Assembly (NCBI GenBank): GCA_963281255.1
Contig: OY725489.1
Span: 5,332,523 to 5,396,522, forward strand
Length of the DNA stretch: 64,000 nt
Reading direction: 5' to 3'
DNA from: Aphrocallistes beatrix
Taxonomy: Eukaryota > Porifera > Hexactinellida > Sceptrulophora > Aphrocallistidae
This document shows positions 8,376 through 49,756 of this stretch, piece by piece. How positions within the stretch are numbered: position 1 is the stretch's first letter; the number at the start of each line of letters is the position of its first letter. The position numbers and the translations under genes were made by a program. The notes beneath the pieces were generated by a model. The model did not search any database. It was not told the DNA's origin and saw nothing but the letters and a program-made list of their open reading frames with translations.

Positions 8376-8532
8376 TCCTACAGGTTAGGGAAAATTTTCT
8401 AATAGAATTTGAAATACATGATCCACCAACGCTTAGGAACATGTTGAAGAGAAATTAAATCGAAAGATAAGGACTTCATCAATTCTCTATCTGAGAGGCA
8501 AGAATGGCAAAACAAACAAACGTGTAGTAACA

Positions 8533-10236
8533 TTGGAAGATCTTTATGATGCTATTAAGAAGGTTCACATCGATCAAAATCATAGTGGTAGGACTGGATT
8601 GTATAAAATAATTTCATTAGAGCTGCATGGAGTGACAGAAAAGATTTGTCAGCTTTTCGTTTCCCACTGCAGGATATGTCAACTCAAGAAATTGAGGAAG
8701 TCTATTAGATCCCTTGTTATCAAACCAATTTCCTCTTCGTCATATTTATCTCGCGGGCAGATTGACTTGATTGACTTTTCAACGGTATTTCCCGAAGATA
8801 ATGAACCATATAACTGGCTTCTTGTATATCAAGATCATTTTACAAAGTTTGTCCGTCTACGTGCACTAGTGAATAAGTCTGCTGAAAAAGTTGCAAACGC
8901 TCTAATGGATTTTTTCTGCGATTTGGGAGCTCCGCTTATCCTTCAGAGTGATAATGGACGGGAGTTCAAAAATGCACTATTATTTAACATCCTGAATGAA
9001 AACTGGCCGTCAACAAAAATCATTCATGGGATGCCGCGTCATCCTGAAACTCAAGGCTCTGTTGAAAGAGCTAACCAAGACATCAAACGTCACTTCACTG
9101 CCATGTTTGACAACTCTGAGAACTCTTGGGTTAAGTTTGTCCGCCAAGTACAATATAAGAAGAATACCAGCTTTCATAGCACGATTGGAATGACTCCGTT
9201 CCAAGCGCTTGTACATCGTAAATCCCCTCTAGGCCTCACAGAACTCGGCATTCCCATTGAAGCGATATATAATATCTGGAGTGAAGATGATCTAGAACGC
9301 ATCACTGAGGAAATGAATAATCAATCTACTCTACCGAGACCTGAAGTGTATGACAACATCTGTGAAGTCCATTATTATGAGAGACAAGACACAGCAATTC
9401 CTTTGTATTCAGATCAATCTGATATCTATATGAAAGAAATATCACTTCCTCCTTCATCAAATCTTCACGTTTTCGAAGAAAACACTCACCCCGAGAGTCC
9501 AGGAATTTCTAAGTTCCCACCAATAAATAACTCCGATCAACCGCACGCTTCTATTCTACCCCAAGCATCTATAAATGAACCCACAAATTCGATTAGCAGC
9601 GTGCAGTTAGGAATTCATTCGCTTGACACCACCTTCCCATCACAATCTGAGGACACACCAGAATGCGCTGAATGTAACAACGAGACTTCAGGAGCACATC
9701 GTTGTCCAGGGTGCAAACGCTACATGTATGTTATTTGTGGGAGATCCAACGGTGAAGAAGGATTTGGAGCTGGCATATGGTGCAGCAAGTGTGACTTGCA
9801 TCGGTTACAGCAAGAAGGTGAGGTGGAGCGTATCGGAATTAAACGTCGCCAGAGCAAATTTCATAGCAGGATGCTCAAGAGCAGCGCCAGTAAAATGACT
9901 TCTGCCAATGTTGGGGATACAGTCATAATTCCGATAGCTAAACCCGATGTCATGATTCCACTTAGGATCAAAAACTTGATGGGTGTAATAATGGACAAAA
10001 ATGAAGACCTTTATGCAATCGGTACTGATCAAGGAAGGTTGGAATCCAGATATACACACAATCAATTTGATGTTTGTCCGACAAAGTTACATAAAATCGA
10101 TTCTGTTCCTGATTCTGTAATCTCACAGACCACAGCAATGCAGAATGCATCAATGTTTGTCTTGCAATCTTGTACTAGGACGTTCAATAAGTCTTGCGGG
10201 TCATGGTATATTTCGCAGACTATAATAGTAAACTAA
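8533..10236 (+). CDS. Integrase-core protein (KRBA2/Ginger-like, possibly Ty3-derived) fossil
   Basis: Domain order: an HHCC zinc-binding module (HIDQNHSG...CRICQ), then a DDE integrase core with the first Asp in QIDLIDFS, the second in LQSDNGREF and the Glu in HPETQGSVERANQ. A Pro/Ser-rich linker and a CxxC-HxC zinc finger (CAEC...HRCPGC...CSKC) of PHD-like type follow. This layout is known from animal proteins annotated as KRAB-A domain-containing 2-like, which derive from Ginger/Ty3-type integrases. The frame stays open upstream of 8533 without an ATG, so the true start or an upstream exon is not resolved. From 10,175 onward the frame reads through the left end of the mariner inserted there; the last about 20 residues are therefore foreign. 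I see no LTRs. Confidence 0.75.
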   Translation: MEDLYDAIKKVHIDQNHSGRTGLYKIISLELHGVTEKICQLFVSHCRICQLKKLRKSIRSLVIKPISSSSYLSRGQIDLIDFSTVFPEDNEPYNWLLVYQDHFTKFVRLRALVNKSAEKVANALMDFFCDLGAPLILQSDNGREFKNALLFNILNENWPSTKIIHGMPRHPETQGSVERANQDIKRHFTAMFDNSENSWVKFVRQVQYKKNTSFHSTIGMTPFQALVHRKSPLGLTELGIPIEAIYNIWSEDDLERITEEMNNQSTLPRPEVYDNICEVHYYERQDTAIPLYSDQSDIYMKEISLPPSSNLHVFEENTHPESPGISKFPPINNSDQPHASILPQASINEPTNSISSVQLGIHSLDTTFPSQSEDTPECAECNNETSGAHRCPGCKRYMYVICGRSNGEEGFGAGIWCSKCDLHRLQQEGEVERIGIKRRQSKFHSRMLKSSASKMTSANVGDTVIIPIAKPDVMIPLRIKNLMGVIMDKNEDLYAIGTDQGRLESRYTHNQFDVCPTKLHKIDSVPDSVISQTTAMQNASMFVLQSCTRTFNKSCGSWYISQTIIVN

Positions 10237-11510
10237 TCAGTTTTCATCTATAACACAACCTTATATCTTAGCTTGATTTACTGAAAATCTTAGCTTGATT
10301 GAATGAAAATTACAAATTTCTGATCAATTTATTCACACATCATTTCAACATACTGGTAAAATTATGGCTTCCAAGGATGACAATTTTAATCTGAAATGGA
10401 GAGCTTACATTGAGTTTCGCACAAAACTCCGCATCCAGCCGGTACTCATCTACAACGAGTTGCAGGAGGTATTGTGCATGGACTGCCCTTTCAGATCAAC
10501 GGTTGAGCGATGGGCTGCACGATTTCAGTCTGGAAATACAGACGTGTCAGATCTACCTCGATCTGGGAGACCGGTGTCCGTCAGCACCCCAGAGAATGTT
10601 GCTCTAATCGAGAGCAAAGTCAGGGAAGATAAGTGTATAACAATCGAGCAGTTAGAGCAGAGTATGGAGATTTCATCGGGGGCCATTCATTCCATTCTGA
10701 CTACTCAGCTTGGTTTCCGATCCATTCGCGGTAAGTGGGTCCCACATAACCTCGGCGATCAACAAAAGCTCGCACGTGTAAAGACTGCCAAGAAACTCCT
10801 GGAAACCTATGACGGTTGTGATCCTAGACGCCTAGCTGAAGTTATAACCGGGGATGAGACTTGGGTCTATTATTCAACCCCTTACAGCAAGTATAAAATG
10901 CGATCATGGGTGAGAGGGGACGAAAGACCGGCCCAAATTCCTAGGCCCGACTTCAGAAAACCGAAGGTCATGTACCCGATTTTCTTCAATAGTAGTGGAA
11001 TAGTCTTGCAAATACCTTCTGAAAGTGGTAAAACAGTAAACGCAACGTTTTTTACAAAGAAAGTACTTCCAAACCTAATCAAAAACGCGGAAGAGCTCCG
11101 AGCCAAGGCTAAAACGAGGGGAATAAAATTATTGATAGATAATGCTAGCTCCCATACAGCCAAGCTCACTAAAAATTTCTTGGAATCAGAGGGGTTAAAT
11201 TTACTTCCCTACCCACCCTACTCACCAGACCTAGCTCCCTGTTATTTTTGGCTATTCCCCAAGCTCAAAATCTACCTTCAGGCAAGGAACTTGAGCCGAA
11301 ACAAACCCTCGGGTCGGCCCTGTACCACTGCTTCAAATCCATCCCCGAAGAAGAGTACAGAAATGCATTCATAAAGTAGGTGGAAAGATTGAAACGCTGT
11401 GTAGAATTAGGAGGGGGGTATTTCGAATATATAATACATTGAAACATATTCTATGACATTTATTTATTATTTTATGGTATGACCCGCAAGACTTTTTGAA
11501 TGCCCTAGTA
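10175..11510 (+). mobile_element. mariner element inserted in the integrase gene
   Basis: 1,336 bp with inverted ends of about 28 bp (CTAGGACGTTCAATAAGTC on the left, the complement of CTAGGGCATTCAAAAAGTC on the right, then CTTGCGGGTCAT) and the TA duplication at 10,173-10,174 and 11,511-11,512. It lies in the same orientation as the integrase gene it splits. Confidence 0.95.
10364..11374 (+). CDS. mariner-family transposase (inactive)
   Basis: 336 residues read from an ATG at 10,364, close to the 340-350 usual for mariner. The N-terminal helix-turn-helix region leads to the linker motif WVPHNL (family WVPHEL), then the first Asp in ITGDETW, the second in LLIDNASSHTA and the YSPDLAP motif. 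The third catalytic Asp of the DD34D triad, expected after LAPC/S, is replaced by Tyr (LAPCYFWLF), so the enzyme should be dead. The frame shifts near 11,290. The usual C-terminus (YHCFKSIPEEEYRNAF) is readable downstream in another frame, with a stop where a Trp is expected. It would act in cis on the flanking inverted repeats. Confidence 0.93.
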   Translation: MASKDDNFNLKWRAYIEFRTKLRIQPVLIYNELQEVLCMDCPFRSTVERWAARFQSGNTDVSDLPRSGRPVSVSTPENVALIESKVREDKCITIEQLEQSMEISSGAIHSILTTQLGFRSIRGKWVPHNLGDQQKLARVKTAKKLLETYDGCDPRRLAEVITGDETWVYYSTPYSKYKMRSWVRGDERPAQIPRPDFRKPKVMYPIFFNSSGIVLQIPSESGKTVNATFFTKKVLPNLIKNAEELRAKAKTRGIKLLIDNASSHTAKLTKNFLESEGLNLLPYPPYSPDLAPCYFWLFPKLKIYLQARNLSRNKPSGRPCTTASNPSPKKSTEMHS

Positions 11511-23577: not shown

Positions 23578-23780
23578 TTAAGATACCAAATAGTTGAATT
23601 CGAGGAAAGTTGAAGTATTATTACCTATAGCAATGGAGATTTTGAATTTTAAAAAATACATTGGGTTTAAATAGTGATGTCACTGATCAGTGGCGTCAGG
23701 TTGACCAAAAAAGCGGGGGGGCCAGCCGGCCAGGCCGTTGTACTAGTACTTTTATACTAAATGCACTCAATATGTCAATA

Positions 23781-23948
23781 CAGTAAACCCTTGCTAATCA
23801 GAAGTCCGAACGGAGGAGTTCCGATTCAAAAGATATCTGTTACGATTATGGTATATATTCCAAGTTATTTTAATATGAATTTGAGAATGAGATGTTCGGA
23901 TTTGCGAGGGATCGGAGTGCCAAGGTTCTGAAAAGCGGGGGGCTACTG
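23781..23948. mobile_element. pogo-like MITE inside hAT copy 1
   Basis: CAGTAAACCCTTGCTAATC at the left and the complement of CAGTAGCCCCCCGCTT at the right, flanked by TA. It is also present in hAT copy 2 (about 39,205-39,372), so it entered the hAT before the two copies separated. Confidence 0.6.
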
Positions 23949-24140
23949 TACATAAAAAAATGAATAATTGTATCAATTTTATATTCAATACTTTCAGGTT
24001 GGTATTTTATATTTGATCAATTAAAGAATCATTATTTCACGTTGTTTTTTAATTGAACAATGGAAGTGTCTATACTCTATAGTGCTAATAATATACTACA
24101 CTGAATGTGTTTCCAACCATAAATAACAAACAAATCAAGA

Positions 24141-24172
24141 CACAGTGGTTTGGGGCACGTATTTGGTAAAAA
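24141..24172. repeat. Left terminal inverted repeat / RSS-heptamer-like end
   Basis: CACAGTGGT is exactly repeated at the right end in complement (27,462-27,470). Beyond that only scattered positions match (GGCA, TTTGG/TTTAG), so the true repeat is short. No good match to the RSS nonamer ACAAAAACC is found at a 12- or 23-base spacing. Confidence 0.9.
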
Positions 24173-24805
24173 AATCTTGAACTCAGAAATACATTTACAT
24201 ATGATAATTAGCTTCCTAGATGTCTAAATATTATGTGTATCAAATATTGAGTGTATTGGAAGCCTAAATTTACAATACGACATTAAAGTATGTAGTCGAT
24301 TTTGACTGTAGCTGAATACATATTTTGCGGTTTGAAAATATCAAAAAAATAAACATTCCTGATTTTGCTTTTTGAGTAAGATAGGATCGTTTCAACTTCA
24401 ATAATATACAATACTCATTCAAATTGTTACATTTTAAGACTAAAACGACTGATTTTTTAATGTAGATTGTAATTTTTTGACTTTCCTTTTTGAGTCGAAA
24501 AAAGATACAGTTAATATAATTTTTACGTTTTGAAAATGGCCGCAAAAGTAAAAACCACCAAATACCAGTTGGAAATTGAGTATACTTACTCTCTAATGTC
24601 ATATAGCCAACATGTTAGAATTATAAGACCCGATTCAATGCGCAACTTGATCAAAGTTGCTACATTCCATTGTCTATTATTCGTTGCTAGGTTTCAACAA
24701 ATTAGCCTACATATGCATCAATAACATATTTCTTATATAATACCATTTATATATTTGAAATAATCGATTACAACGTAATTTATACTTGAAAATCTACACA
24801 AGAAC

Positions 24806-26317
24806 ATGGCTGAAGGTCCCATTCTGAAAACCCGTCGTGATTTAGCGCAGATTTTGGCTCAGAATGAGTTCAACATTACTGTCACAGCTTCTAAAGTTTT
24901 AGAGCTGTTGAATCTTGACGAAACGAAACTTGTGACAATCACTTCTTTATTGAGTAAGATCAAAATGAACATCAAAAGGTACAAAAGAAGTGTTGATTCA
25001 CTGAATTCTGAGTGGTGGAATCACGAAATTCCATGGGAATCAAATCCCATACAAATTACCACTTCTGTTTCGATAGAATCGAAAGTAAAGAAGAACCTAT
25101 TTTCTCTCCAATTGCAACAACAACGAATTAGGCTATCTTCTATCCTGGAACAGATTCGGGAAACGGCTATTATGGAGGGTTCTACTCCTCTAGAAATAGC
25201 AGCGTTGGTATTGCAACTGCTTGCTAATGAGTGCGATAATCGCAAGATTGCTAAGCTAGCAAAGGAGGTTATCAGTAGTGGAGGTTTTAGTGGAATAACT
25301 TTGAGTTATGTACCCGTTGACAAGGCGATATTCTTACTTGACATGCTTGAAATGGGAAGAAGGAAATACGCTCAACTTCGCCAAACTTTATTGGCAGAGA
25401 ATATACACTCTCCCTCTCACAGTAAGGTCTTAGATCTGAGGAATGTCTTGGTATCAAGTGATCTGATACAACTCTATCCTAATCCTCATCAACCGATTGG
25501 TGTACAAACCCCCTACTACCTTCAAGTGCAACAAACTCTTGAAAGAATTCTTACAACATTGAGTCCACTTGATCCTGAAGAATTTCCACTCCAATTCCGG
25601 ATAGCGGATGGTTTGGATGGTAGCGGTTGTCATACCATATACAATCAACTTCACACTAACACCAATACTAAGAACTATATCCTCTTCTGTTTCAAACCAA
25701 TATCTATTTCTACAGCGTCAAACAGAATTATTTGGCAAAATCAATACCCTAATTCGCCTTTCTCACAACGACCAGTATTTCTTTGCGCTGCTAAAGAATG
25801 CGAAAAAAATATCCGGTTATTTATGGAAGATTTAATTAACCCAGATACCGAAAAATTACAAAATGGAATCACTTTACAGAATGGTGTTGTTAAGGTGGAA
25901 ATTGTCCGATCAATGTTCGACGGGAAGATGTCTGCTATATTATCTGGTGCAGGGGGAGCCAGTTGCCAAATGTGCACTGCCACTCATGACGATCTGAAAG
26001 ATCGTGATTTAATTGAAGACGGCTTCCCCATAAATAGAACAATTACAGATGCGATTCAGTTATTTGGAGAGCTTGAAAATGTTGAAGAATTCTTTGCACT
26101 TCCATCAAATGAGCGTTACAATATAACCCATCAACCTATTTCTAAAGTTAACATCATTGCTGCTTCTCCACTCCACTCTTACACCTGCATTCTTAAGTGG
26201 TTCAATCTTCTGGTATACCATTTGCATATTGGAAAATTGAAATGGTCCACGACTACTACAGATATCAAAGATTCCATGAGAAACGTGCAGAAGATTGTAC
26301 AAGAAAAGACAGGTTGA
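24806..26317 (+). CDS. RAG1/Transib-like transposase, N-terminal and catalytic part
   Basis: 503 residues from an ATG at 24,806. Residues 1-200 are helical and charged, where RAG1 has its dimerisation and pre-catalytic regions; I see no RING or nonamer-binding motif. The first catalytic Asp is D268 in RIADGLDGSG (RAG1 D600 in SCDGMGD). YILFCFKPISI and PNSPFSQRPVFL follow the RAG1 order (FSFTVMRI, PNSELCCKPLCL). The second Asp is D372 in SMFDGKMSAIL (RAG1 D708). C387/C390 in CQMCTAT match the RAG1 zinc ligands of CTLCDAT. The frame ends in a shift at about 26,311, after which the protein continues in the next frame. It should cut at the CACAGTG ends and join with a 5-bp stagger. The single frameshift may be real decay or a sequencing error. 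Confidence 0.92.
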   Translation: MAEGPILKTRRDLAQILAQNEFNITVTASKVLELLNLDETKLVTITSLLSKIKMNIKRYKRSVDSLNSEWWNHEIPWESNPIQITTSVSIESKVKKNLFSLQLQQQRIRLSSILEQIRETAIMEGSTPLEIAALVLQLLANECDNRKIAKLAKEVISSGGFSGITLSYVPVDKAIFLLDMLEMGRRKYAQLRQTLLAENIHSPSHSKVLDLRNVLVSSDLIQLYPNPHQPIGVQTPYYLQVQQTLERILTTLSPLDPEEFPLQFRIADGLDGSGCHTIYNQLHTNTNTKNYILFCFKPISISTASNRIIWQNQYPNSPFSQRPVFLCAAKECEKNIRLFMEDLINPDTEKLQNGITLQNGVVKVEIVRSMFDGKMSAILSGAGGASCQMCTATHDDLKDRDLIEDGFPINRTITDAIQLFGELENVEEFFALPSNERYNITHQPISKVNIIAASPLHSYTCILKWFNLLVYHLHIGKLKWSTTTTDIKDSMRNVQKIVQEKTG

Positions 26318-26940
26318 AAATTGACCTACCAGATGCAAGTGGTGGAACAACTTCGACGGGAAATGTTGCAAGAAGGGTTTTTTCAGAAGATTCGAATTTT
26401 ATTGAATGTGTTCTATCAATGATAGCTGGCCAACACCGTCCTGCGTTATTAAAGGTACATACTCAACTATCTGCGATATTGAGGATTTTCAATTCAGGTC
26501 TATTAATTAACTCCTCAGATTTAGGAAAACTGTGTAAGGAAACATATATTTTAGTGCTAGATTCATTTCCATGGGCGAGCATCACGCCTACCTTACACAA
26601 GCTTCTAGCACACTCGGAAGAACTTATTCGAGAATATAATTCAGGATACGGATTGAAATCTCTTTCAGAAGAAGGCTCAGAAGCCTGCAACAAATTAGTG
26701 AGGAGATATCGAGAGAAGTTATCCCGTAAAAACAGCTTTGGATGCAATACCATCGATATATTTGTGAGATTGTCGTCACAAAGCGACCCTGTATTGGTAG
26801 GCTATCGGAGGCATCTATCTTGTGTAAGATGTGGCCAATCAGGGCATACGGAGAGAAGTAAATGCCATGTTGAGAGCCAACAAACTTCAAACATAGAGGC
26901 TCTCATTTCTTCATTGACAATTTCCAATATTGAAGATTAG
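26311..26940 (+). CDS. RAG1/Transib-like transposase, C-terminal part
   Basis: Continues the previous entry after a one-position frame change; the conserved protein runs from KIDLPDASGG to a stop at 26,940. HKLLAH (from 26,596) keeps the two zinc-ligand histidines of RAG1 (HKTLAH), and SEEGSEACNKLVRRYR contains the catalytic Glu (codon at 26,680) aligned with RAG1 E962 in ASEGNESGNKLFRRF. The tail carries a CCHC zinc knuckle, CVRCGQSGHTERSKC, near the C-terminus. RAG1-like transposases of invertebrates are known to carry Cys/His motifs in their C-terminal tail, which vertebrate RAG1 has reduced. Apart from the frame change all metal- and zinc-binding residues expected are present. Together the two parts give about 710 residues, a usual Transib length. 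Confidence 0.9.
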   Translation, partial: RLKIDLPDASGGTTSTGNVARRVFSEDSNFIECVLSMIAGQHRPALLKVHTQLSAILRIFNSGLLINSSDLGKLCKETYILVLDSFPWASITPTLHKLLAHSEELIREYNSGYGLKSLSEEGSEACNKLVRRYREKLSRKNSFGCNTIDIFVRLSSQSDPVLVGYRRHLSCVRCGQSGHTERSKCHVESQQTSNIEALISSLTISNIED

Positions 26941-27547
26941 GTAAATATTCGTAAGAATTTATATTCCAATAAAGTAACTTGCTCAGTAATTTATACTCCA
27001 AATAAACAGCGCTTATTTTCAAAGTGACCCATGCGGTTTAGTCACCATTTAAACTATGAATTTCATTTAACAAATTGTCAGAAATTTGAAAGGATCACTA
27101 ATAGTTCACGGTTTGTAAATATTGTATGATAATGAATCATGATCATGATGACGTCAGCATCCTAAGATTGGTTAGCATTATTGTGAAAAAAATAGTGTCA
27201 CAACATAACTCACATTTAGAGCAACCACTCTGTCAACTTTCAAACATATATGTCCCATATTGGCTAAGTAGCCACCTATTTTGCAAATTTTGATAAAATC
27301 CTGAAAGGTGACAAATACGTCATAACTCTAAAAATAGAAGATATATCAACTTTTAAAAATTTTATATCGATTCACAAGTATTGATAACCCATATGTAAAT
27401 AATACATTATTAGTCGCTAGGATATACCTAAATACCTAAAGTTTGCTAAATGCCATTTTGGACCACTGTGCAAGATTCTAGTAATTCAATAAATTTTAAA
27501 ATTACCAATTTCTGATTTCGATCTACATTTATTCTTGAAAATAATAA

Positions 27548-28522
27548 ATGTCTTCTTCTGAGAGTTCAGCTAAAAAGCCTAAGTTTGCACAGCCGATATT
27601 AAGCCAATTTTTCCAAGCAGAATCAAGTCTATCAACACTCACTTCTCCTGACTGCGATCCAGGTTCTCAGTCCCCTGAGAGCCCAAATGAATGTATTACC
27701 CTCTCACAACAGGAATCTGCAGAACAACAGCAAATTACGCCACAAACACCAGTCCAAGTCGGACAAGATTTTAACCCATATCTAGTAGGTAAAGAAACAC
27801 ACTGTCATGGCAATCAGAAGTTTAATAAAGCTTGGCTTGCCGAAATTCCCTGGCTACGTTACGATACAAATTTGGATTTGTGCTGGTGCTCTGTTTGTGT
27901 CTGGGGTTTGAATGCTGACATGTTACCAGCTAGTGAGAACAAACACAGGTTTGCAGAGAGCAGCTTTATCACTGGATGGAATAATTGGCATGATGGCAAG
28001 TCGAAGCTTCTGAGACATACAGGAGCTGATGCCGGTACGCTTAAGCATAATGTACATCATTATTTGGCAGGTGTCAAGGCTGCTCACGAGAATCAGCTAA
28101 CGATTAGGGCCCAAGTAAGCAGCACGAAGAAACGGGAAATGCAAAGGAATAGGATTGGGCTTGATGCTGTTATTTCTAGCATACAACTCTTGGCTAGACA
28201 AGGAATGCCGCTACGAGGCCTTGGCGAAGAAAAAGATACAGCAAATATCTGGCAGGAAGTTAAACTAATTTCAAATTTCAATGAGGATGTAAAATCATAC
28301 TTTAATTCGTCTGGATACAAGTTTATGTCGGTACCAATACAGAATGAGTGTCTCAAGATGTTAGGTGATAGTGTACTGGATATAATTGTTGAGAAGATCA
28401 AGAGGTCTGTTTGGTTTACATGTATCATGGATGAGACTCAAGACATCCCAACCCTTGAGCAAGTTTGCATCTGTATGAGATATGTAGACGATTCAGATCT
28501 AGTGTGCGGGAAGATTTTTTAG
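27548..28522 (+). pseudogene. hAT transposase (DUF4371 family), N-terminal part, copy 1
   Basis: ATG at 27,548, 77 bp after the end of the RAG1-like insertion, so the host hAT lost its promoter-proximal leader continuity but not its start. Ser/Gln-rich leader, a TTF-type zinc-finger region (WLRYDTNLDLCWCSVC, SFITGWNNWHDG), the DUF4371 helices (GLDAVISSIQLLARQGMPLR) and the first catalytic Asp in FTCIMDETQDI. The frame breaks at about 28,500. The protein is identical in copy 2 (37,966-38,940), including this break. Confidence 0.92.
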
Positions 28523-29364
28523 GATTTCATAACATAGTTGGTACTACAGCAGTAGAACTCTACAAGATACTTACCAAGACGATAAAACCTCTTGGTCTTG
28601 ACATGGAGAATTGCCGAGGTCAGGCATACGATGGGGCCTCAAATGTTTCTGGTTTGCAAACATTAGTTAGGAATCATCATCCAAAAGCCCTGTATTCCCA
28701 CTGCGCTGGCCATAATCTTAATTTGGTGCTGAATGATGTTGCAAAGGAAGTTCGCCAGTGTTATCATATCGTGACTCTCGTAGGTAAGATCGGGATATAT
28801 GTGAAGGATTCAGCGAAAAGAAAAGCATATTTCGATCAGATACGAGTTGCAAACTCAGAAGACGGTAAGATAAGCAACTCAAATATCCGTCCCATATGTC
28901 CAACAAGATGGATTCTAAGATACCCTGCAGTCAATGCTATTTTAGAAAATTACGAGGATCTTCTTGACTTCCTGTGCTCCTCAATTGATAACGAAAAGAA
29001 GGCTCAAGGATATGTTAGAGAACTTCAACGCTTTGAAGTCTATTTTGGAGTACGCATTCTACATCGTATCTTTGGTCAAGTTCACCCAGTTCACAATGCA
29101 ATCCAATCAGAATCTATGTCACTGGGGGAGTGTTCAAGTATAATAACTGCACTCACTGCTGCATTGAGAATAGTCGGAGAATCTGTGGTCATTTTTAGCG
29201 TTTTCATAACTAGCTGTAAGTCTTCGGCATTGGCTATGAGTATTGATTTGCCTGTAGTTCCTCGAGGTCTCGCGAAAATGGTGAATAGAGGAAATAGGGT
29301 TGAATGGGAAATTGATGACATCGTTGTCAATAACTATTATCATGGTATTTGGACAAAGATGTAG
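28465..29364 (+). pseudogene. hAT transposase, central catalytic part, copy 1
   Basis: Homology starts at about 28,502 (REDFLGFHNIVGTTAVELY). The second catalytic Asp lies in CRGQAYDGASNVSG, followed by HCAGHNLNLVLNDV and PTRWILRYPAVNAIL, all standard hAT RNase-H-fold motifs. A stop at 29,362 interrupts the protein before the dimerisation domain. Residue-for-residue identical to 37,124-38,023 on the minus strand. Confidence 0.9.
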
Positions 29365-29442
29365 TATAGTTCTTTAGTAGGTTCGCTGACAAAGCGTTTT
29401 CAAGGAAAGGCAATTGACATTGCACGGGATTTTCAAGACATT

Positions 29443-29925
29443 TTGTATAATATGAGCGAAGATTCTAGTTATGAATTCTCTAGCATGAACTCGCTCATGG
29501 AGCTCTACAATACTGACATTAATTGGAAACTGTTGAAGTTGGAAATGATACAATGGGATCGTGTTAGTAAGATATCCAACCCTACCAAACACACGACTGA
29601 TATGAAGTACCTTCACAAGTATCTTTCTGAGAAGTCTGATCATCGTCTAATGTGGCCTAATTTGGTGTTATTTCTTAAGCTCTACCTTCTTCTTCCTTGT
29701 ACATCTTGCTTTGCCGAACGTGGATTTAGCTGCTTAAAACGAATAAAAACATATCTGCGCAACACAATGACAGAAGACAGACTAAATGCATGTGCATTAT
29801 GCAATGTACATCATGAAATATTGGACAAATTGGATATTGGCAAAATTACTGACGGTTGGATTAAGATGAGTGAGGTCAGGATGAATAGATTTGTGCTAAG
29901 TAAAGACAGCTTAAGGGATTACTAG
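29443..29925 (+). pseudogene. hAT transposase, C-terminal dimerisation part, copy 1
   Basis: Open frame resuming after the preceding stop (residues from about 29,365 onward remain readable). The motif CFAERGFSCLKRIKTYLRNT with TEDRLNACAL is the hAT C-terminal dimerisation signature, and its Glu is the third catalytic residue. Identical to 36,563-37,045 in copy 2. Confidence 0.9.
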
Positions 29926-30204
29926 AATAAAATTTATGACATTTCTTTGCTTATAATTTACCTATAATAGCGTACAATAGCAATAAAACAATAAAATGTC
30001 ACAGAATCAATAATATTTAGGATTAATATTTCACACAGCATATTATTTACAGGTACATTGAGAAACTAGTATCAAAATACCTTCAAAATGAGCATCATTT
30101 TTGAGAAAACCGGGGGGGCGGCCCCCCAGGTTTTTGGCTTTTTTCAAAACCGGGGGGGCAAGCCCCCCGCCCCCCCTGAACCTGACGCCACTGTATTACA
30201 GCAA

Positions 30205-35525: not shown

Positions 35526-36562
35526 TGTTTGATTAATTATAAAACCAGAAAAAACTTTGAGGGACCCTGTATATACGCTACCTGGCTAAAAACACGATAT
35601 TGCTTTGCATCATTAGTAATAATAAAATGGGTCTATCTATGGACGCTAATCATTTATATGTTAATGAAATCTAACATCAATTTCGAAATATACACACTCG
35701 AATAAATCAATCAAGAAGGATACTATAGATAATCCTTTCCAAAACATAATTACTACTATCTGTACCACATTGTGTCACTTGTCACCATTATATATTATGG
35801 AAACATGTAGATCAAGGTGGCACAAGCGATATTAATTCCCTCTAGACAATGCTCAGGGTAATGCTACAATGCTCAGGGTAATGAAGCAAGACCTTGGAAT
35901 GTTTCCCTATAGAATCCAGACTGTTCTAAGGCTGACAGCGGGAGACAAGAAGGTAGAAAAATGTTTTAAATTTTTCATGTAATGTTGCTACTTTCCAGCC
36001 ATGCTATGGGAGCACATTTTACTCAGTTGAGGTGATATCTTGAAAACTGGGATAACAATGCATTCAAATTGTTCCTTTTTGTTAGCCAGTATACTATAAG
36101 TACATCCCATTAACGCTTCCGTATACATCCATTGTATTACGTATGAATGGAAAAATGGTTTGTGCTCAATTATTATCATAAACTGTAATATATGTCAACT
36201 CGGGTATATTAATATAGTTAAATGAGCGTTTAACATCAGTGACAGTGGCGTCAGGTTCTATAACTCTCTTTGGTTTGCTTTGGTTTTCTTTTCTTTTTTC
36301 GCTTCGCTTTGGGGGGGCGGGGGGGCTCGCCCCCCCGGTTTTGAAAAAAGCCAAAAACCTGGGGGGCCGCCCCCCCGGTTTTCTCAAAAATGATGCTCAT
36401 TTTGAAGGTATTTTGATACTAGTTTCTCAATGTACCTGTAAATAATATGCTGTGTGAAATATTAATCCTAAATATTATTGATTCTGTGACATTTTATTGT
36501 TTTATTGCTATTGTACGCTATTATAGGTAAATTATAAGCAAAGAAATGTCATAAATTTTATT

Positions 36563-37045
36563 CTAGTAATCCCTTAAGCTGTCTTTACTTAGCACAAATC
36601 TATTCATCCTGACCTCACTCATCTTAATCCAACCGTCAGTAATTTTGCCAATATCCAATTTGTCCAATATTTCATGATGTACATTGCATAATGCACATGC
36701 ATTTAGTCTGTCTTCTGTCATTGTGTTGCGCAGATATGTTTTTATTCGTTTTAAGCAGCTAAATCCACGTTCGGCAAAGCAAGATGTACAAGGAAGAAGA
36801 AGGTAGAGCTTAAGAAATAACACCAAATTAGGCCACATTAGACGATGATCAGACTTCTCAGAAAGATACTTGTGAAGGTACTTCATATCAGTCGTGTGTT
36901 TGGTAGGGTTGGATATCTTACTAACACGATCCCATTGTATCATTTCCAACTTCAACAGTTTCCAATTAATGTCAGTATTGTAGAGCTCCATGAGCGAGTT
37001 CATGCTAGAGAATTCATAACTAGAATCTTCGCTCATATTATACAA
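36563..37045 (-). pseudogene. hAT transposase, C-terminal dimerisation part, copy 2
   Basis: 160 residues identical to 29,443-29,925 of copy 1, with the CFAERGFSCLKRIKTYLRNT dimerisation and catalytic-Glu motif and a natural stop. The upstream stop shared with copy 1 separates it from the central part. Confidence 0.9.
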
Positions 37046-37123
37046 AATGTCTTGAAAATCCCGTGCAATGTCAATTGCCTTTCCTTGAAAACGCTTTGTC
37101 AGCGAACCTACTAAAGAACTATA

Positions 37124-38023
37124 CTACATCTTTGTCCAAATACCATGATAATAGTTATTGACAACGATGTCATCAATTTCCCATTCAACCCTATTTCCTC
37201 TATTCACCATTTTCGCGAGACCTCGAGGAACTACAGGCAAATCAATACTCATAGCCAATGCCGAAGACTTACAGCTAGTTATGAAAACGCTAAAAATGAC
37301 CACAGATTCTCCGACTATTCTCAATGCAGCAGTGAGTGCAGTTATTATACTTGAACACTCCCCCAGTGACATAGATTCTGATTGGATTGCATTGTGAACT
37401 GGGTGAACTTGACCAAAGATACGATGTAGAATGCGTACTCCAAAATAGACTTCAAAGCGTTGAAGTTCTCTAACATATCCTTGAGCCTTCTTTTCGTTAT
37501 CAATTGAGGAGCACAGGAAGTCAAGAAGATCCTCGTAATTTTCTAAAATAGCATTGACTGCAGGGTATCTTAGAATCCATCTTGTTGGACATATGGGACG
37601 GATATTTGAGTTGCTTATCTTACCGTCTTCTGAGTTTGCAACTCGTATCTGATCGAAATATGCTTTTCTTTTCGCTGAATCCTTCACATATATCCCGATC
37701 TTACCTACGAGAGTCACGATATGATAACACTGGCGAACTTCCTTTGCAACATCATTCAGCACCAAATTAAGATTATGGCCAGCGCAGTGGGAATACAGGG
37801 CTTTTGGATGATGATTCCTAACTAATGTTTGCAAACCAGAAACATTTGAGGCCCCATCGTATGCCTGACCTCGGCAATTCTCCATGTCAAGACCAAGAGG
37901 TTTTATCGTCTTGGTAAGTATCTTGTAGAGTTCTACTGCTGTAGTACCAACTATGTTATGAAATCCTAAAAAATCTTCCCGCACACTAGATCTGAATCGT
38001 CTACATATCTCATACAGATGCAA
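37124..38023 (-). pseudogene. hAT transposase, central catalytic part, copy 2
   Basis: 299 residues identical to 28,465-29,364. Carries AYDGASNVSG (second Asp) and HCAGHNLNLV. Ends at the same stop as copy 1. Confidence 0.9.
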
Positions 38024-38940
38024 ACTTGCTCAAGGGTTGGGATGTCTTGAGTCTCATCCATGATACATGTAAACCAAACAGACCTCTTGATCTTCTCAAC
38101 AATTATATCCAGTACACTATCACCTAACATCTTGAGACACTCATTCTGTATTGGTACCGACATAAACTTGTATCCAGACGAATTAAAGTATGATTTTACA
38201 TCCTCATTGAAATTTGAAATTAGTTTAACTTCCTGCCAGATATTTGCTGTATCTTTTTCTTCGCCAAGGCCTCGTAGCGGCATTCCTTGTCTAGCCAAGA
38301 GTTGTATGCTAGAAATAACAGCATCAAGCCCAATCCTATTCCTTTGCATTTCCCGTTTCTTCGTGCTGCTTACTTGGGCCCTAATCGTTAGCTGATTCTC
38401 GTGAGCAGCCTTGACACCTGCCAAATAATGATGTACATTATGCTTAAGCGTACCGGCATCAGCTCCTGTATGTCTCAGAAGCTTCGACTTGCCATCATGC
38501 CAATTATTCCATCCAGTGATAAAGCTGCTCTCTGCAAACCTGTGTTTGTTCTCACTAGCTGGTAACATGTCAGCATTCAAACCCCAGACACAAACAGAGC
38601 ACCAGCACAAATCCAAATTTGTATCGTAACGTAGCCAGGGAATTTCGGCAAGCCAAGCTTTATTAAACTTCTGATTGCCATGACAGTGTGTTTCTTTACC
38701 TACTAGATATGGGTTAAAATCTTGTCCGACTTGGACTGGTGTTTGTGGCGTAATTTGCTGTTGTTCTGCAGATTCCTGTTGTGAGAGGGTAATACATTCA
38801 TTTGGGCTCTCAGGGGACTGAGAACCTGGATCGCAGTCAGGAGAAGTGAGTGTTGATAGACTTGATTCTGCTTGGAAAAATTGGCTTAATATCGGCTGTG
38901 CAAACTTAGGCTTTTTAGCTGAACTCTCAGAAGAAGACAT
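37966..38940 (-). pseudogene. hAT transposase, N-terminal part, copy 2
   Basis: 324 residues identical to 27,548-28,522, starting at an ATG at 38,940. It has the TTF-type zinc-finger region, DUF4371 helices and first Asp (IMDETQDI), and overlaps the central frame by the same shift as copy 1. Unlike copy 1, its upstream region is uninterrupted back to the element end at 39,465. Confidence 0.92.
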
Positions 38941-39473
38941 TTATTATTTTCAAGAATAAATGTAGATCGAAATCAGAAATTGGTAATTTTAAAATTTATT
39001 GAATTACTAGAATCTTGATTTGTTTGTTATTTATGGTTGGAAACACATTCAGTGTAGTATATTATTAGCACTATAGAGTATAGACACTTCCATTGTTCAA
39101 TTAAAAAACAACGTGAAATAATGATTCTTTAATTGATCAATTATAAAATACCAACCTGAAAGTATTGAATATAAAATTGATACAATTATTCATTTTTTTA
39201 TGTACAGTAGCCCCCCGCTTTTCAGAACCTTGGCACTCCGATCCCTCGCAAATCCGAACATCTCATTCTCAAATTCATATTAAAATAACTTGGAATATAT
39301 ACCATAATCGTAACAGATATCTTTTGAATCGGAACTCCTCCGTTCGGACTTTTGATTAGCAAGGGTTTACTGTATTGACATATTGAGTGCATTTAGTATA
39401 AAAGTACTAGTACAACGGCCTGGCCGGCTGGCCTCCCCGCTTTTTTGGTCAACCTGACGCCACTGCTGTAATA

Positions 39474-40722
39474 TGATAACCTTTTAAACCTCGATCACTC
39501 ATAAGTAACGGTTCCTGTTTATACTAATGGGAACTTCCAATACATCAACTTGTAGTAACTGCATTGTTCTTCCCGCCGGCGTATTTATCAGAGGTGCCTT
39601 AATAGAGAGAGGAAATTTTGCCCGTTCGCACACCTCACACGAGGCCACATATGCCTCATCTCAAACATCCGAATTTATTTCGACCCAATATGCCACTCAC
39701 TTTAATCTACTAAGGGTTCTCTCAGCGCCTTGATGACCCGCTTCTTCGTGGGCTTGAAACAACATCACGACTTTTCTGCTATCCGGTACTACGATAACAC
39801 TATTGCATTGTGAAAAGGCATCTACCTTGTAGGTACGCTCTAATATCCCATTCTTAATCTGCAACTGTGTTCTAATCTGCTTTTATCTGATTAGAATTGA
39901 ATTTTCCTTCCATTCGACTCCAGAAAATTGCAAATCTGTTGGTATTGTTTCCATTTCACGAATAATCTTACCAATAAATTGATCATTAAGTTGGCATCGT
40001 CTTAATTCTTCTTTCAAAATTTGGTAGCGAAGTAATTTCCGTAACTGCGATTCTATCGTTAACGGCAGAAAGAGTTCCCATGATCAATTTACAAGTGTTA
40101 GCCTCTAAATCGTCTTCATCTGGCATTTCCACGCGTCTGCATTATCGTTGAACTAATATACTACTCTAAAATCAAACCCTTGGATGATAATTGCCCATCT
40201 CCACAGTTTGCCAATACGTTTCTGACTCATAGCCACTCCAATGGTTTGCGATATGTGATGATTCGAAATTCCCTCCCTAATAAATAATGCCTAAACCGTT
40301 TTAATGACTCAACGATTCCTAAACATTCTAGCTCCACTGTACTATAGCGATTATTAGCCCCTCTTAAGGATCTACTAAAATAAACGACTGGATGACCTTC
40401 TTGTTCTAGGACAGCCCCCAAGCCCGTACCACTTGCGTCTGTACATAGGGTAAAAACCTTTTCGAAATCGGGACATACTAAAACAGGATCGGATGATAAT
40501 AACTCTTTCAATATAGTAAATGCTGTTACTTCGCTTTCTTCCCAAGTAAGAGCGTTGTACTTTCCTAAAAGACGATTAAAAGGGTCTGCGATTGATGCTA
40601 AGTTCTTTATATATCTCCTATAGTAGCTCGCCAGTCCCAAAAATTGCTTAACATATTTTTGACATTTAGGGCGGGGCCAGTTCAGAATACTGTCAATCTT
40701 TGAAGCATCCGGTGACATCCCT
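39474..40722 (-). mobile_element. Ty3-type LTR retroelement pol fossil (fragment)
   Basis: Minus-strand remnants of a Ty3/gypsy pol: the end of the reverse transcriptase with the thumb-like FLGLASYYRRYIKNLA, an RNase H region (LCTDASGTGLGAVLEQEG, PVVYFSRSL), and further on the HHCC zinc-binding part of integrase (39,600-39,780). It is truncated at both ends: on one side it meets the PHD region of a MULE gene at about 40,722, on the other hAT copy 2 at 39,465. No LTR is present in the window. It has several breaks and is clearly an old fragment. Confidence 0.85.
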
Positions 40723-42610
40723 TCTACAATGTACCATTTGTTACAAACATCACACTGAATCCAATTTAAATGATCGCCATCAATTACAATGTTCAGCTGC
40801 AAAATTGTACCGTCATCTTCTGTCCCCCACAAATTCTACATTTTTCAACATCACCCTGGGAAGATGTAGGAACTATGGGAGCTTTAAATGTCGGACAAGT
40901 TGGTAATAGCTCGTCTTCGACTTGATCCTCAGGGTACTCAACATGGGAATAACTGAATTTTCCACTACTATATCCTTCCCCAAATTTACGGAGGTTCACA
41001 TCACTTTTTTGCCTGCGCTTAAGACAGGTTCGAAATCGCCTACGTTGCTTATTAACTAGTTTTCACTGGCCTCAACTCGGTTCTGATCTAAACTAGTTAG
41101 CAAATCAATGAGGCTAGGGTGAAAGGTAACTTGCAACTTTTGGGGAATTTCAGTTATTGCCATATATCCTTCATTATACCGTATCACGGTAAGGGCACTC
41201 CCCAATCTCATAAGATCTAGACAAACCGCATCAGTCTTGCGCACCATTGAAAATAAAATGTTATGGATTGCCTCATTGTGGTTACTAGTTTGTCCCTGCG
41301 CTATTTGACCAACGAATTCTTCTGTATTATATCGGTATTTCGTGAATACAATTTGTACCAGAGTAACAGCCTCTGGACTCAAACACTTGGGGTGCTTAGG
41401 GGGAATCTGGTCGTGAGAAATAGCATTTTGGTATCGGCACAATGAATCTTTCCCCTTTGGGCAATTTTGGTGATTTATTTCAGCATTTTTATCATTGGCG
41501 CCAAGATGGAAAGGGATAACTTTGATTGATTCTAAGCTCAAAATTGAGTTCCCTAAACTTTGTCTTACTGCAAGTGGGTAAAAAGATGTAATTAGAGCGC
41601 AGATTTCATTAGTAAGGAATTGAATTTGAGTAGAGTGACTTTTCACCTTCGGAACATTTTAGATAGTAATTTGGTGGAAATATGAACCTCAGGATTGCAT
41701 CATACTGACCACGGGGAATATTTTACGGGTTGTTTTCCCGTGGTATTCTTCATCGACCTGTTTTTTTGGCCTTTGATGTATCCATGCCTTGCTTGACAAG
41801 ATATTTAAGTTCAAACTTTTTACTTGCACGGGCCTGTTTCAGCTGATCCTTTTGATGCTCTATCAAATGTGAATTCATGCGCTTCCCTACATGGGCTAAG
41901 CACTCGAATCTGTGGATGGTATGTTGAGGAACTGTGTCTGCATAGGGAATAGAATTGCTTATCTTAGTAAAGGTTTTCGTATCCCCATCACAAATAAGAC
42001 CATCGAAAATAACGCCCCGCTCAAGTGCCTGTATTAAAATGGATGGTGCCAGTTCGCTCTCTAATGACACGCTAGAATATTCACCATACTTTGCGGGGAA
42101 GGTGGTTTTATGGGAATCGACCAATTTGTCAAATTCCTGTTGTTCTATTCTATGTTCCACTAACTGTTCGAGTCCTTAAGGAACAGCTATTACAGGCCAC
42201 GTCATAAGCAATTATTTTTCCAAGGCTCATGGAAACCACAGATCCAAAACAGTACCGGGAATGACCACCGACGCCTCTGTTGGATCTTTTTTGGTACGCC
42301 CCATCGAAGGAACCAATCTCATGGACTAAACCATATTCATCTTGCCAAATTTTACAGCTAATTGACTCGCAGCGTGCATCATTGTATCACGGGCAATGGA
42401 CTCCGCCACAATCAATAGATCTCTTTGCGTCTCAGCATAATGTCTAGGCGAGAGTTCAATACCGATCATTGAGTGATAAATATCTAGGCCAAGGCGACCA
42501 GCAAGGATAGTCTGGTAGATAGAATCATCGCGTTTGCTGACTGATTCGATACTGGAATCATAATTGAGAATTTGCCCGATAGAGTCCAAAAATCCTTCCC
42601 TGAACCACAA
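40722..42610 (-). pseudogene. Second Mutator-like (MULE) transposase with PHD finger, minus strand
   Basis: Pieces in order on the minus strand. 42,610-42,326: YQTILAGRLGLDIYHSMIG and a helical region typical of the pre-catalytic part. 42,330-42,180: the first Asp in FDGAYQKRSNRG, then GKIIAYDVACNSC. 42,160-41,750: the second Asp in FDGLICDGDTKTF, then FECLAHVGKRM. 41,646-41,056: NCPKGKDSLCRYQNA, then the catalytic Glu in TSNHNEAIHNILFSM. 40,999-40,725: a PHD-type finger CRICGG...WIQCDVCNKWYIV, cut off by the Ty3 fragment. At least four frame breaks. It is of a different subfamily from the plus-strand MULE at 16,611 (sequence similarity is limited to the motifs) but has the same domain plan. 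Confidence 0.85.
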
Positions 42611-48954: not shown

Positions 48955-49756
48955 TCAGAGCAGATTAAAGCTGATCAGGTTAGGCAGGTTGTTCCTGAGA
49001 AAAGTCTCCCACTCTTTCAATATGGCATCTTTTAATTCCGACAAATAGTGTTCTGTTGAGAGACGCTGCTTTAGGACTCCCCAGAGGTTCTCAATTGGAT
49101 TAAGATCAGGGGAATTGCTTGGCCAAGCTAATTGAGCAATGTTTCTGTCGGACTTCCATGCTTTACTGAGGCTTGAAGTGTGAATTGGCGAGTTATCCTC
49201 CTGTAGTACACAGCCTTCAGCATAGAAAAAATCTGCAATTTCTAGCAGGCATTCATCTAGAGTATCAATGTAACAACCGAAGTTAAAATTTCCTTCGAAA
49301 ACCTTCAAAATAGTTGTTCCGCAAGCCGAAATGCCACCCCAGATGTGAATCTTCGCTGTGTCGTGTGTTGGGGGATTTTCTGAAATGTAGTTTGTGTTCC
49401 CTTGGTCCAGAATCGAGAACAATTCCGGTTTAACCAAACTGAGCACTCGTCTGTGAAGATAACTCTTTCTCAATCCTGTTTATGATTTTTAGCCCAAACA
49501 ACTCTTTTCGGCAGTTAAAGGTGTGACGAATGGCCCCCTGATAGGTTTCATCGATTTGAAGCCGGATTTTAGAATAGTCCTATAAACGGTAGCAGTCGAA
49601 GGTGCATTGGGATGAGTAGCTGCTAATTTCCCTCTCAAATTACGAATAGACATCGTCGGTGAGCATTTTAGAGTAGTAATTAAGGATTGTTTCTGCCAAA
49701 AAGTGATAGTCGAAGGTCGACCTGCTCCCTGTTTATGCTGAAGTGAATTATTCTCG
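48955..49756 (-). pseudogene. Tc1-like transposase, main part
   Basis: Minus strand. 49,756-49,489 encodes a helix-turn-helix region with the AT-hook-like GAGRPSTITFWQKQSL, then TVYRTILKSGFKSM (DNA-binding linker). 49,473-48,955 continues through HIWGGISACGTTIL, the second Asp in VLQEDNSPIHTS (family QDNAPIH) and the catalytic Glu in SNSPDLNPIENLWGVLKQRL. The first Asp region is readable in another frame near 49,440, so at least one frameshift. The extreme N-terminal part continues beyond 52,276, separated by the hAT element inserted at 49,765. Confidence 0.88.

Follow-up and report, generated by a model that had tools for sequence, protein, structure and literature searches.

A Transib transposon of the glass sponge Aphrocallistes beatrix with a conserved box at its right end only, a candidate second recognition site

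A stretch of 64,000 nucleotides from the glass sponge Aphrocallistes beatrix (assembly GCA_963281255.1, contig OY725489.1, positions 5,332,523 to 5,396,522; the window in the following) harbours at positions 24141-27470, on the plus strand, a 3,330-bp transposon with CACAGTGGT inverted at both ends, which we call family A. By its catalytic (DDE) and zinc residues, by the transposase of Helicoverpa zea (HzTransib) as its nearest relative of known structure, by 5-bp target-site duplications, by short inverted ends that start with CAC and by its single gene the element is a member of the Transib superfamily. As such it is of a known kind. What is new is the architecture of its right end, where a box that had gone unnoticed in a preliminary description of this DNA is conserved among related elements. 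As best reading we propose a recently inserted cut-and-paste Transib of a Subgroup I-like lineage, in which this box would be a second recognition site, present at the right end only, that pairs left with right ends; taken as a whole, the end-pairing function of the box included, we consider this explanation likely.

In the alignment of right ends the similarity comprises a block of about 100 bp with the core GTATTATTNACNTATRGGTTATC, and the box itself is 23-27 bp long. Thirteen elements whose ends had been set without using the box all carry it in their right ends with 0-2 mismatches, starting at base 66 in twelve of them and at base 58 in one. In the left-hand 400 bp of these thirteen the best match has 7-9 mismatches, in their middles 7-8, and shuffled right ends (n = 300) gave 7-9 mismatches in 285 cases, 5 in two, 6 in twelve and 10 in one. 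The only site within the window at up to 3 mismatches is the right end of the element. For the whole genome (100.5 Mb in 28 contigs were searched, and all counts from genome searches are lower bounds) we found at least 114 box sites and two sites of the reversed pattern. An exact scan of viral contigs for the box found none.

After 18 places in known loci had been taken from the 100 listed box places, 20 of the remaining 82 were drawn at random. An exact CACAGTGG is present upstream of the box in 16 of these 20 sites, at a spacing of 65 bp in twelve and of 64, 66, 60 and 45 bp in one each, which means that the spacing is within one base of 65 bp in 14 of the 20. The sites without CACAGTGG are L043, L050, L054 and L059; three of them align over 228-245 bp with right ends of family C or D, and L043, which by eye resembles L057, aligns around the box only. 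Clustering of 22 right ends left 15 representatives, in nine of which the box starts at base 66 according to a simple pattern. In these nine, all with the 65-bp spacing, the mean conservation is 1.76 bits at bases 1-8, 0.44 at bases 9-30, 0.62 at bases 31-60 and 1.36 at bases 61-90.

One right end comes from another source. L042 was found by its protein and not by the box; its right end, CACAATGGCTTAAAATG, carries CACAATGG and, at base 66, the box with 3 mismatches, a match reached by none of 200 shuffles, and a broken Transib fragment lies alongside. This glass-sponge-like stretch (JABAAK010000070.1, positions 1-300) is filed as part of a metagenome-assembled genome (MAG) of Candidatus Paceibacter (bin129o), and probably represents host sequence that ended up in the bin of a symbiont. 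An excerpt of PMC7426153 reports a Patescibacteria MAG with the number 129 from the glass sponge Vazella pourtalesii, and judging from the bin number L042 would be DNA of this sponge, which belongs to another order of glass sponges.

Ends of the same side resemble each other more than ends of opposite sides, and right ends stay similar much deeper into the element than left ends. Comparing positions 13-50 among families A-E, p was below 0.05 (10,000 shuffles, uncorrected) in eight of 20 same-side comparisons and in none of 25 opposite-side comparisons, among them each element's own left against its own right end. Per 38 bases, right ends share on average over the ten family pairs 14.5, 21.5, 17.7 and 15.6 matches in the first four blocks, left ends share 15.2, 12.6 and then 10.8-12.8, and left-right pairs share 9.8-10.4. 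The A-rich, nonamer-like stretch AAAAAAATC of the left end, which we take to resemble a published Transib nonamer, has a parallel in family B, where AAAAAAATA is found at the same place, 20 bp after the left heptamer. These A-rich stretches of the A and B left ends may be the left counterpart of the right-end box.

The heptamer CACAGTG, whose exact agreement with the recombination signal sequence (RSS) carried much weight in the preliminary description, is the usual one here: it stands at 24 of the 26 ends of the thirteen elements, and CACARTG at all 26. The exact RSS heptamer is thus the rule in this genome and not the surprising part. Some Transib heptamers and nonamers have already been stated to be identical to the canonical RSS ones (excerpt of PMC8355894), and on both grounds we no longer treat the heptamer as a surprising feature. 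Among the papers listed for heptamer spellings there was no Transib paper. Because CACAGTG is also common by chance in the window (5 present, 4.15 expected), the heptamer alone proves nothing about the element.

In the mechanism that we propose, nicks made by the RAG1-like DDE transposase beside the CACAGTG of each end would release the element, which would then be joined to the target with a 5-bp stagger. These steps are modelled on HzTransib and RAG; the ends, duplications, empty sites and catalytic and zinc residues are observed. The ends are not equivalent, with the heptamer at both and a second conserved site at the right one only. The transposase, or a host protein alongside it, would bind the box, which would be read together with the heptamer as second recognition site, and a left end would in this way be paired with a right end. 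A box about 65 bp from the end, i.e. about six helical turns, would place the two sites close to the same face of the helix. It is even possible, and we put this forward tentatively, that synapsis or cleavage requires the box about 58 bp beyond the heptamer, that recombination is therefore restricted to a left end with a right one, and that this rule is conserved between hexactinellid orders and works without RAG2.

The boundaries of the element had been given to the base, together with its inverted termini and a CAAGA duplication, and all of this is exact. Its first 200 bases match at least three other places in the genome, and its last 200 bases match the same three, L024 (a copy without the left part) and three weaker relatives. 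The three other copies with both ends (1,883, 1,880 and 1,987 bp) terminate at the same bases as the window element, are flanked by the 5-bp duplications ATAGG, TAGTG and AGAAG, and show 16, 17 and 20 mismatches to the window copy over about 1,870 bases compared. They share a single internal deletion of element bases 898-2348 and are therefore non-autonomous derivatives. In the family A derivative L023 (C3:2318159) the right heptamer is CACAATG and not CACAGTG, and a perfect 5-bp duplication still flanks the copy. In total, 5-bp duplications were found at four of four family A copies with both ends and at four of five family B copies whose ends were set by homology, L027 being the one that differs.

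Empty sites point to the same boundaries. Window positions 23688-24140 and 27471-30176 recur inverted at 39465-36312, where the element is absent and a single CAAGA is present. The insertion target is a repeat. Nine other copies of it can be followed from either flank as far as the junction, at no less than 95%, and in nine of nine the two flank matches overlap by exactly 5 bp; the base-by-base reading covers the empty site in the window. In a tenth copy (C3) the right flank is matched only from base 91, and further flank matches, on C1, C9, C19 and C20, are incomplete or divergent and end short of the junction on one or both sides. The boundaries are therefore established by three non-autonomous copies with different duplications and by nine empty sites with a 5-bp overlap. 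The target repeat has the ends CAGTGGCGTCAGGTT in the window copy, and its first predicted protein has a DUF4371 domain. Two inverted, near-identical copies of about 3.2 kb lie in the window at 23688-30193, which hosts the Transib, and at 36312-39465 (minus strand), which has no right end; about ten genomic places match both flanks at 95% or more. That this inverted repeat is a segmental duplication was considered and rejected, as it consists of two copies of the repeat encoding the DUF4371 protein.

As described before, the element has one gene of about 710 residues with a single frameshift: two overlapping frames together encode about 711 residues, and the one frame step between them is deduced from intact full-length relatives, which read across the junction without a gap and which also rule out an intron at this place. 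All hallmark residues of a Transib transposase, namely D, D and E and the CxxC and HxxxxH zinc ligands, are present. The RAG1 landmarks named in the preliminary description were thus all found, but in RIADGLDGSG the catalytic residue is the second Asp and not the first, in whose place the relative P0043 has His; the second Asp (GLDGSG) is matched in the alignment by GFDGAS in HzTransib and by CDGMGD in mouse RAG1. Likewise, the word complete holds for the structure of the transposon but not for its gene. With its broken frame the window copy is likely to depend on transposase from another copy; it is probably not autonomous and is probably now served in trans. Since the left ends of families A and B are identical over their first 11 bases, the supplier might be a B-type transposase.

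Searched as separate pieces against solved structures, both frames have the HzTransib transposase as nearest relative (E = 9.8e-8 for the first and 1.2e-15 for the second frame), and the second frame also matches ProtoRAG RAG1L (2.7e-7) and vertebrate RAG1 (7e-4). The family profile gives 169.7 bits for HzTransib, 82.8 for ProtoRAG RAG1L and about 66 for vertebrate RAG1. No other family scored better, so the early placement in the RAG1/Transib family stands. Pfam finds no match for the first frame and RAG1 below the cut-off for the second (19.4 of 25 bits); among six relatives Pfam RAG1 is matched by five, of which two exceed the cut-off, one equals it and two stay below. The family profile also aligns a stretch of the first frame with GGRPRQHLLSL... 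of mouse RAG1, which is presumably its nonamer-binding domain. The other open frames of the element are all at most 114 residues long, which leaves a single gene and no RAG2L gene. In database searches with the transposase, each scoring about 8,000 candidates, Oopsacas minuta is the sole named source among the matches listed, and the Oopsacas proteins carry transposase or RAG-type names in the databases. The COX1 on contig C28 of the genome agrees with a glass sponge close to Aphrocallistes: translated with table 5 it shows 95% identity to A. beatrix, and with TGA read as Trp and AGR as Ser, as in the glass-sponge code, the identity is 95.1% to A. vastus, 97.5% to a further protein and 87.0% to the A. 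beatrix record, for which another code may have been used.

Ninety stretches of the A. beatrix genome match the first frame at E <= 0.001. Four more families with both ends and duplications were recognized: B (L025, L026, L029, L030), C (L032, L036), D (L033) and E (L037). The search for the ends of families B-E required equal duplications, therefore the duplications of C, D and E are no independent evidence. The family B copies L026, L027, L029 and L030 are 99.3-99.8% identical to L025 over their full length, and a frame of 734 codons is open in L025, L027 and L029; both ends of L027 are present with unequal 5-bp flanks. At about 1754-2885 of L031 a non-autonomous family D Transib is nested within a family B Transib. 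In a tree of 34 proteins the window protein groups with P0017 (100/99) and weakly with P0009 (81/75), inside the glass-sponge sequences. RAG1L and RAG1 stand apart at 100/100, and the HzTransib branch is long and of uncertain position (long-branch warning).

Tao et al. 2022 (PMC9435367) distinguish from Subgroup II a Transib Subgroup I, which has an alpha11-alpha12 region, a CTT1 tail and asymmetric ends and is nearer to RAG1L. Between two aligned stretches the family profile spans 48 positions; HzTransib fills this interval with 12 residues, and the alignment of ProtoRAG RAG1L is continuous there. Of the 20 proteins of at least 650 residues, 11 show this zinc-domain stretch by pattern, with a length of 51-53 residues from GFP to SPLH; in the other nine the pattern was not found. 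The C-terminal knuckle of the window protein is Cx2Cx3GHx5C, compared with Cx2Cx3GHx4C in CTT1; a loosened motif, Cx2Cx3[GN]Hx3-6C, occurs in 13 of the 20 proteins, and Pfam zf-CCHC is found below the cut-off in three of six relatives. Asymmetric ends are seen both in the comparison of same-side with opposite-side ends and in the box at the right end only. Judged from sequence, the protein features fit Subgroup I as defined by Tao et al. 2022.

Several observations weigh against a box that pairs ends. Family E has a spacing of 57 bp instead of 65, and the sampled sites with 60 and 45 bp deviate as well. The 114 sites are not independent: at 75% identity, six of the 16 right ends in the sample fall into the cluster of family D. 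Since the sample was chosen by the box, its conservation there is partly a matter of choice. The similarity of left ends between families is weak beyond base 12, and the eight same-side values below 0.05 carry no correction for multiple tests. Moreover, the right block holds motifs that resemble transcription-factor sites, including a CRE-like TGACGTCA, which makes a regulatory role possible. An ordinary Transib, whose right-end box is a cis-regulatory or 3'-processing module of transcription unrelated to the pairing of ends, would account for these motifs, which we take to be like GATA, forkhead and CRE sites, for the position of the block downstream of the transposase stop and for a second copy of it in families B and E. 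That second copy lies further inside, at 5131-5235 of L025 and, in part, at about 1505-1545 of L037. We nevertheless hold this explanation to be unlikely. The distance from box to end is near constant though the spacer varies, which argues against a purely transcriptional role, and the box has been kept in copies whose internal deletions removed much of the gene. Neither an RNA family nor a consensus RNA structure was found in the right block, and a known or structured RNA was rejected on these searches; a conserved small protein was rejected too, as the frames close early in A, C and D (by eye). Still less probable is that the block is similar merely through a common ancestral element and the youth of the families. 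These do form one glass-sponge clade in the tree, but their proteins are far apart (B 55%, C 45%, D 42% and E, over 239 residues, 50% identical to the window first frame), the sole A-B match longer than 100 bp among the matches listed is in the coding part, bases 9-60 have diverged and bases 61-90 have not, and no such block is common to the left ends.

Turning from the box to the element itself, a RAG-like (RAGL, ProtoRAG-like) transposon or a domesticated RAG1 gene in place of a Transib is hardly conceivable, and was rejected on profile scores and tree. The zinc knuckle and the zinc-domain stretch are in common with RAG1L (for the RAG1L motif see the excerpt of PMC7204232), but HzTransib scores above RAG1L and RAG1, these two split off in the tree with full support, subject to the long-branch warning, no RAG2L is encoded, the heptamer is CACAGTG and not CACTATG, and the family is mobile and present in multiple copies. 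For the broken gene a sequencing error has to be considered, in which case the window copy would itself be autonomous. The insertion is young, the break is a single one and family B copies with intact frames exist, but a database protein of 503 residues (P0024) ends at the same stop, although both sequences might derive from one set of reads. In the other three family A copies the region of the frame step is missing, and they are uninformative on this point. On balance we think an error improbable.

Positions of all features within the window are collected in the table below. The window is rich in mobile elements: by eye, integrase-like, mariner-like and polyprotein-like frames can be found at 8437-10236, 10307-11374, 40227-42175 and 48955-49479.

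Features of the family A Transib and its insertion sites (window coordinates)
Feature	Position	Strand	Remarks
Transib element (family A)	24141..27470	+	3,330 bp; based on other copies and uninterrupted copies of the target repeat
Target-site duplication CAAGA, left copy	24136..24140	.	sequence and empty sites
Target-site duplication CAAGA, right copy	27471..27475	.	sequence and empty sites
Left inverted repeat CACAGTGGT	24141..24149	+	heptamer 24141-24147
A-rich nonamer-like stretch AAAAAAATC	24168..24176	+	20 bp after left heptamer
Transposase first open frame	24806..26317	+	503 aa, TGA stop
Stretch aligned by family profile with GGRPRQHLLSL... of mouse RAG1	25088..25237	+	
Catalytic Asp 1 (GLDGSG)	25616..25618	+	alignment with relatives, HzTransib and mouse RAG1
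Catalytic Asp 2 (SMFDGK)	25919..25921	+	
Zinc ligands CQMC	25964..25975	+	
47-residue stretch in zinc-binding region, candidate alpha11-alpha12 region	26021..26161	+	HzTransib largely without it; present in ProtoRAG RAG1L
Second open frame	26197..26940	+	coding part from about 26315, C-terminal third of transposase
Single frame step	26310..26317	+	coding continues in another frame
Zinc ligands HKLLAH	26596..26613	+	
Catalytic Glu (SEEGSEACNK, E of SEA)	26680..26682	+	
C-terminal zinc knuckle CVRCGQSGHTERSKC	26821..26865	+	CTT1/CTT*-like
Right-end subterminal block common to families A-F	27311..27415	-	alignment
Right-end box GTATTATTTACATATGGGTTATC	27383..27405	-	starts at base 66 of right end
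Right heptamer CACAGTG	27464..27470	-	
Empty site, single CAAGA in uninterrupted inverted copy of target repeat	39013..39017	-	

The 12/23 signals of V(D)J recombination are unequal, and how they arose from transposon ends that were equal is an old question, usually tied to RAG2. The families described here offer a relative without RAG2 that is young by the identity of its copies, has heptamers identical to that of the RSS and has sharply differing ends. With it, the question of how end signals became unequal can be put to the test; the role of the box as second site can be tested directly on intact copies with known ends. If unlike ends are indeed required, a Transib that has no RAG2 would follow a logic of heptamer, spacer and second element like that of 12/23. 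Should the role of the box be confined to the regulation of transcription, the families would remain useful as Transibs whose heptamers match the RSS exactly. Among titles and beginnings of abstracts we found no report of such a subterminal box in Transibs and no paper on a Transib of sponges (Porifera, hexactinellid), and the excerpt of PMC13337447 names none. The term RAG1 is absent from the main text of two glass-sponge genome papers (PMC10280926, PMC10282587) in the portions available, and the Oopsacas genome paper gives the share of DNA transposons as 15.44%.

In comparison with known systems, the element resembles HzTransib (PDB 6pqn; Subgroup II of Tao et al. 2022) in having one gene, a RAG1-like DDE transposase, heptamer ends starting with CAC and 5-bp duplications, and differs from it by the longer zinc-domain stretch of the glass-sponge proteins, the CCHC-like C-terminal knuckle, the asymmetric ends and the right-end box. 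With the Subgroup I Transibs (Hydra, ctenophore and others; PMC9435367) it has asymmetric ends in common, together with a candidate zinc-domain stretch of agreeing length and alignment and a knuckle that resembles CTT1 in a loosened form; the box about 60 bp inside, which is not mentioned in the main text of that paper, sets it apart. Like ProtoRAG and other RAGL elements it has heptamer-like ends, 5-bp duplications and a C-terminal tail close to the Cx2Cx3GHx4C type (excerpts of PMC8289069 and PMC7204232), and like ProtoRAG it has bipartite, asymmetric ends (PMC8289069, same excerpt), but those elements carry RAG2L, according to the same partial sources. In ProtoRAG the heptamer is CACTATG, and at each end a second element follows at a distance of 27 or 31 bp (PMC8289069, excerpt), and the ends of protostome RAGL elements are CACTWMC (PMC7204232, excerpt). 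Compared with the RSS of V(D)J recombination, the spacer between heptamer and box is 58 bp long and exists at the right end only, and the box has by eye no likeness to the nonamer ACAAAAACC; common to both are the exact heptamer CACAGTG and the order of heptamer, variable spacer of fixed length and second conserved element.

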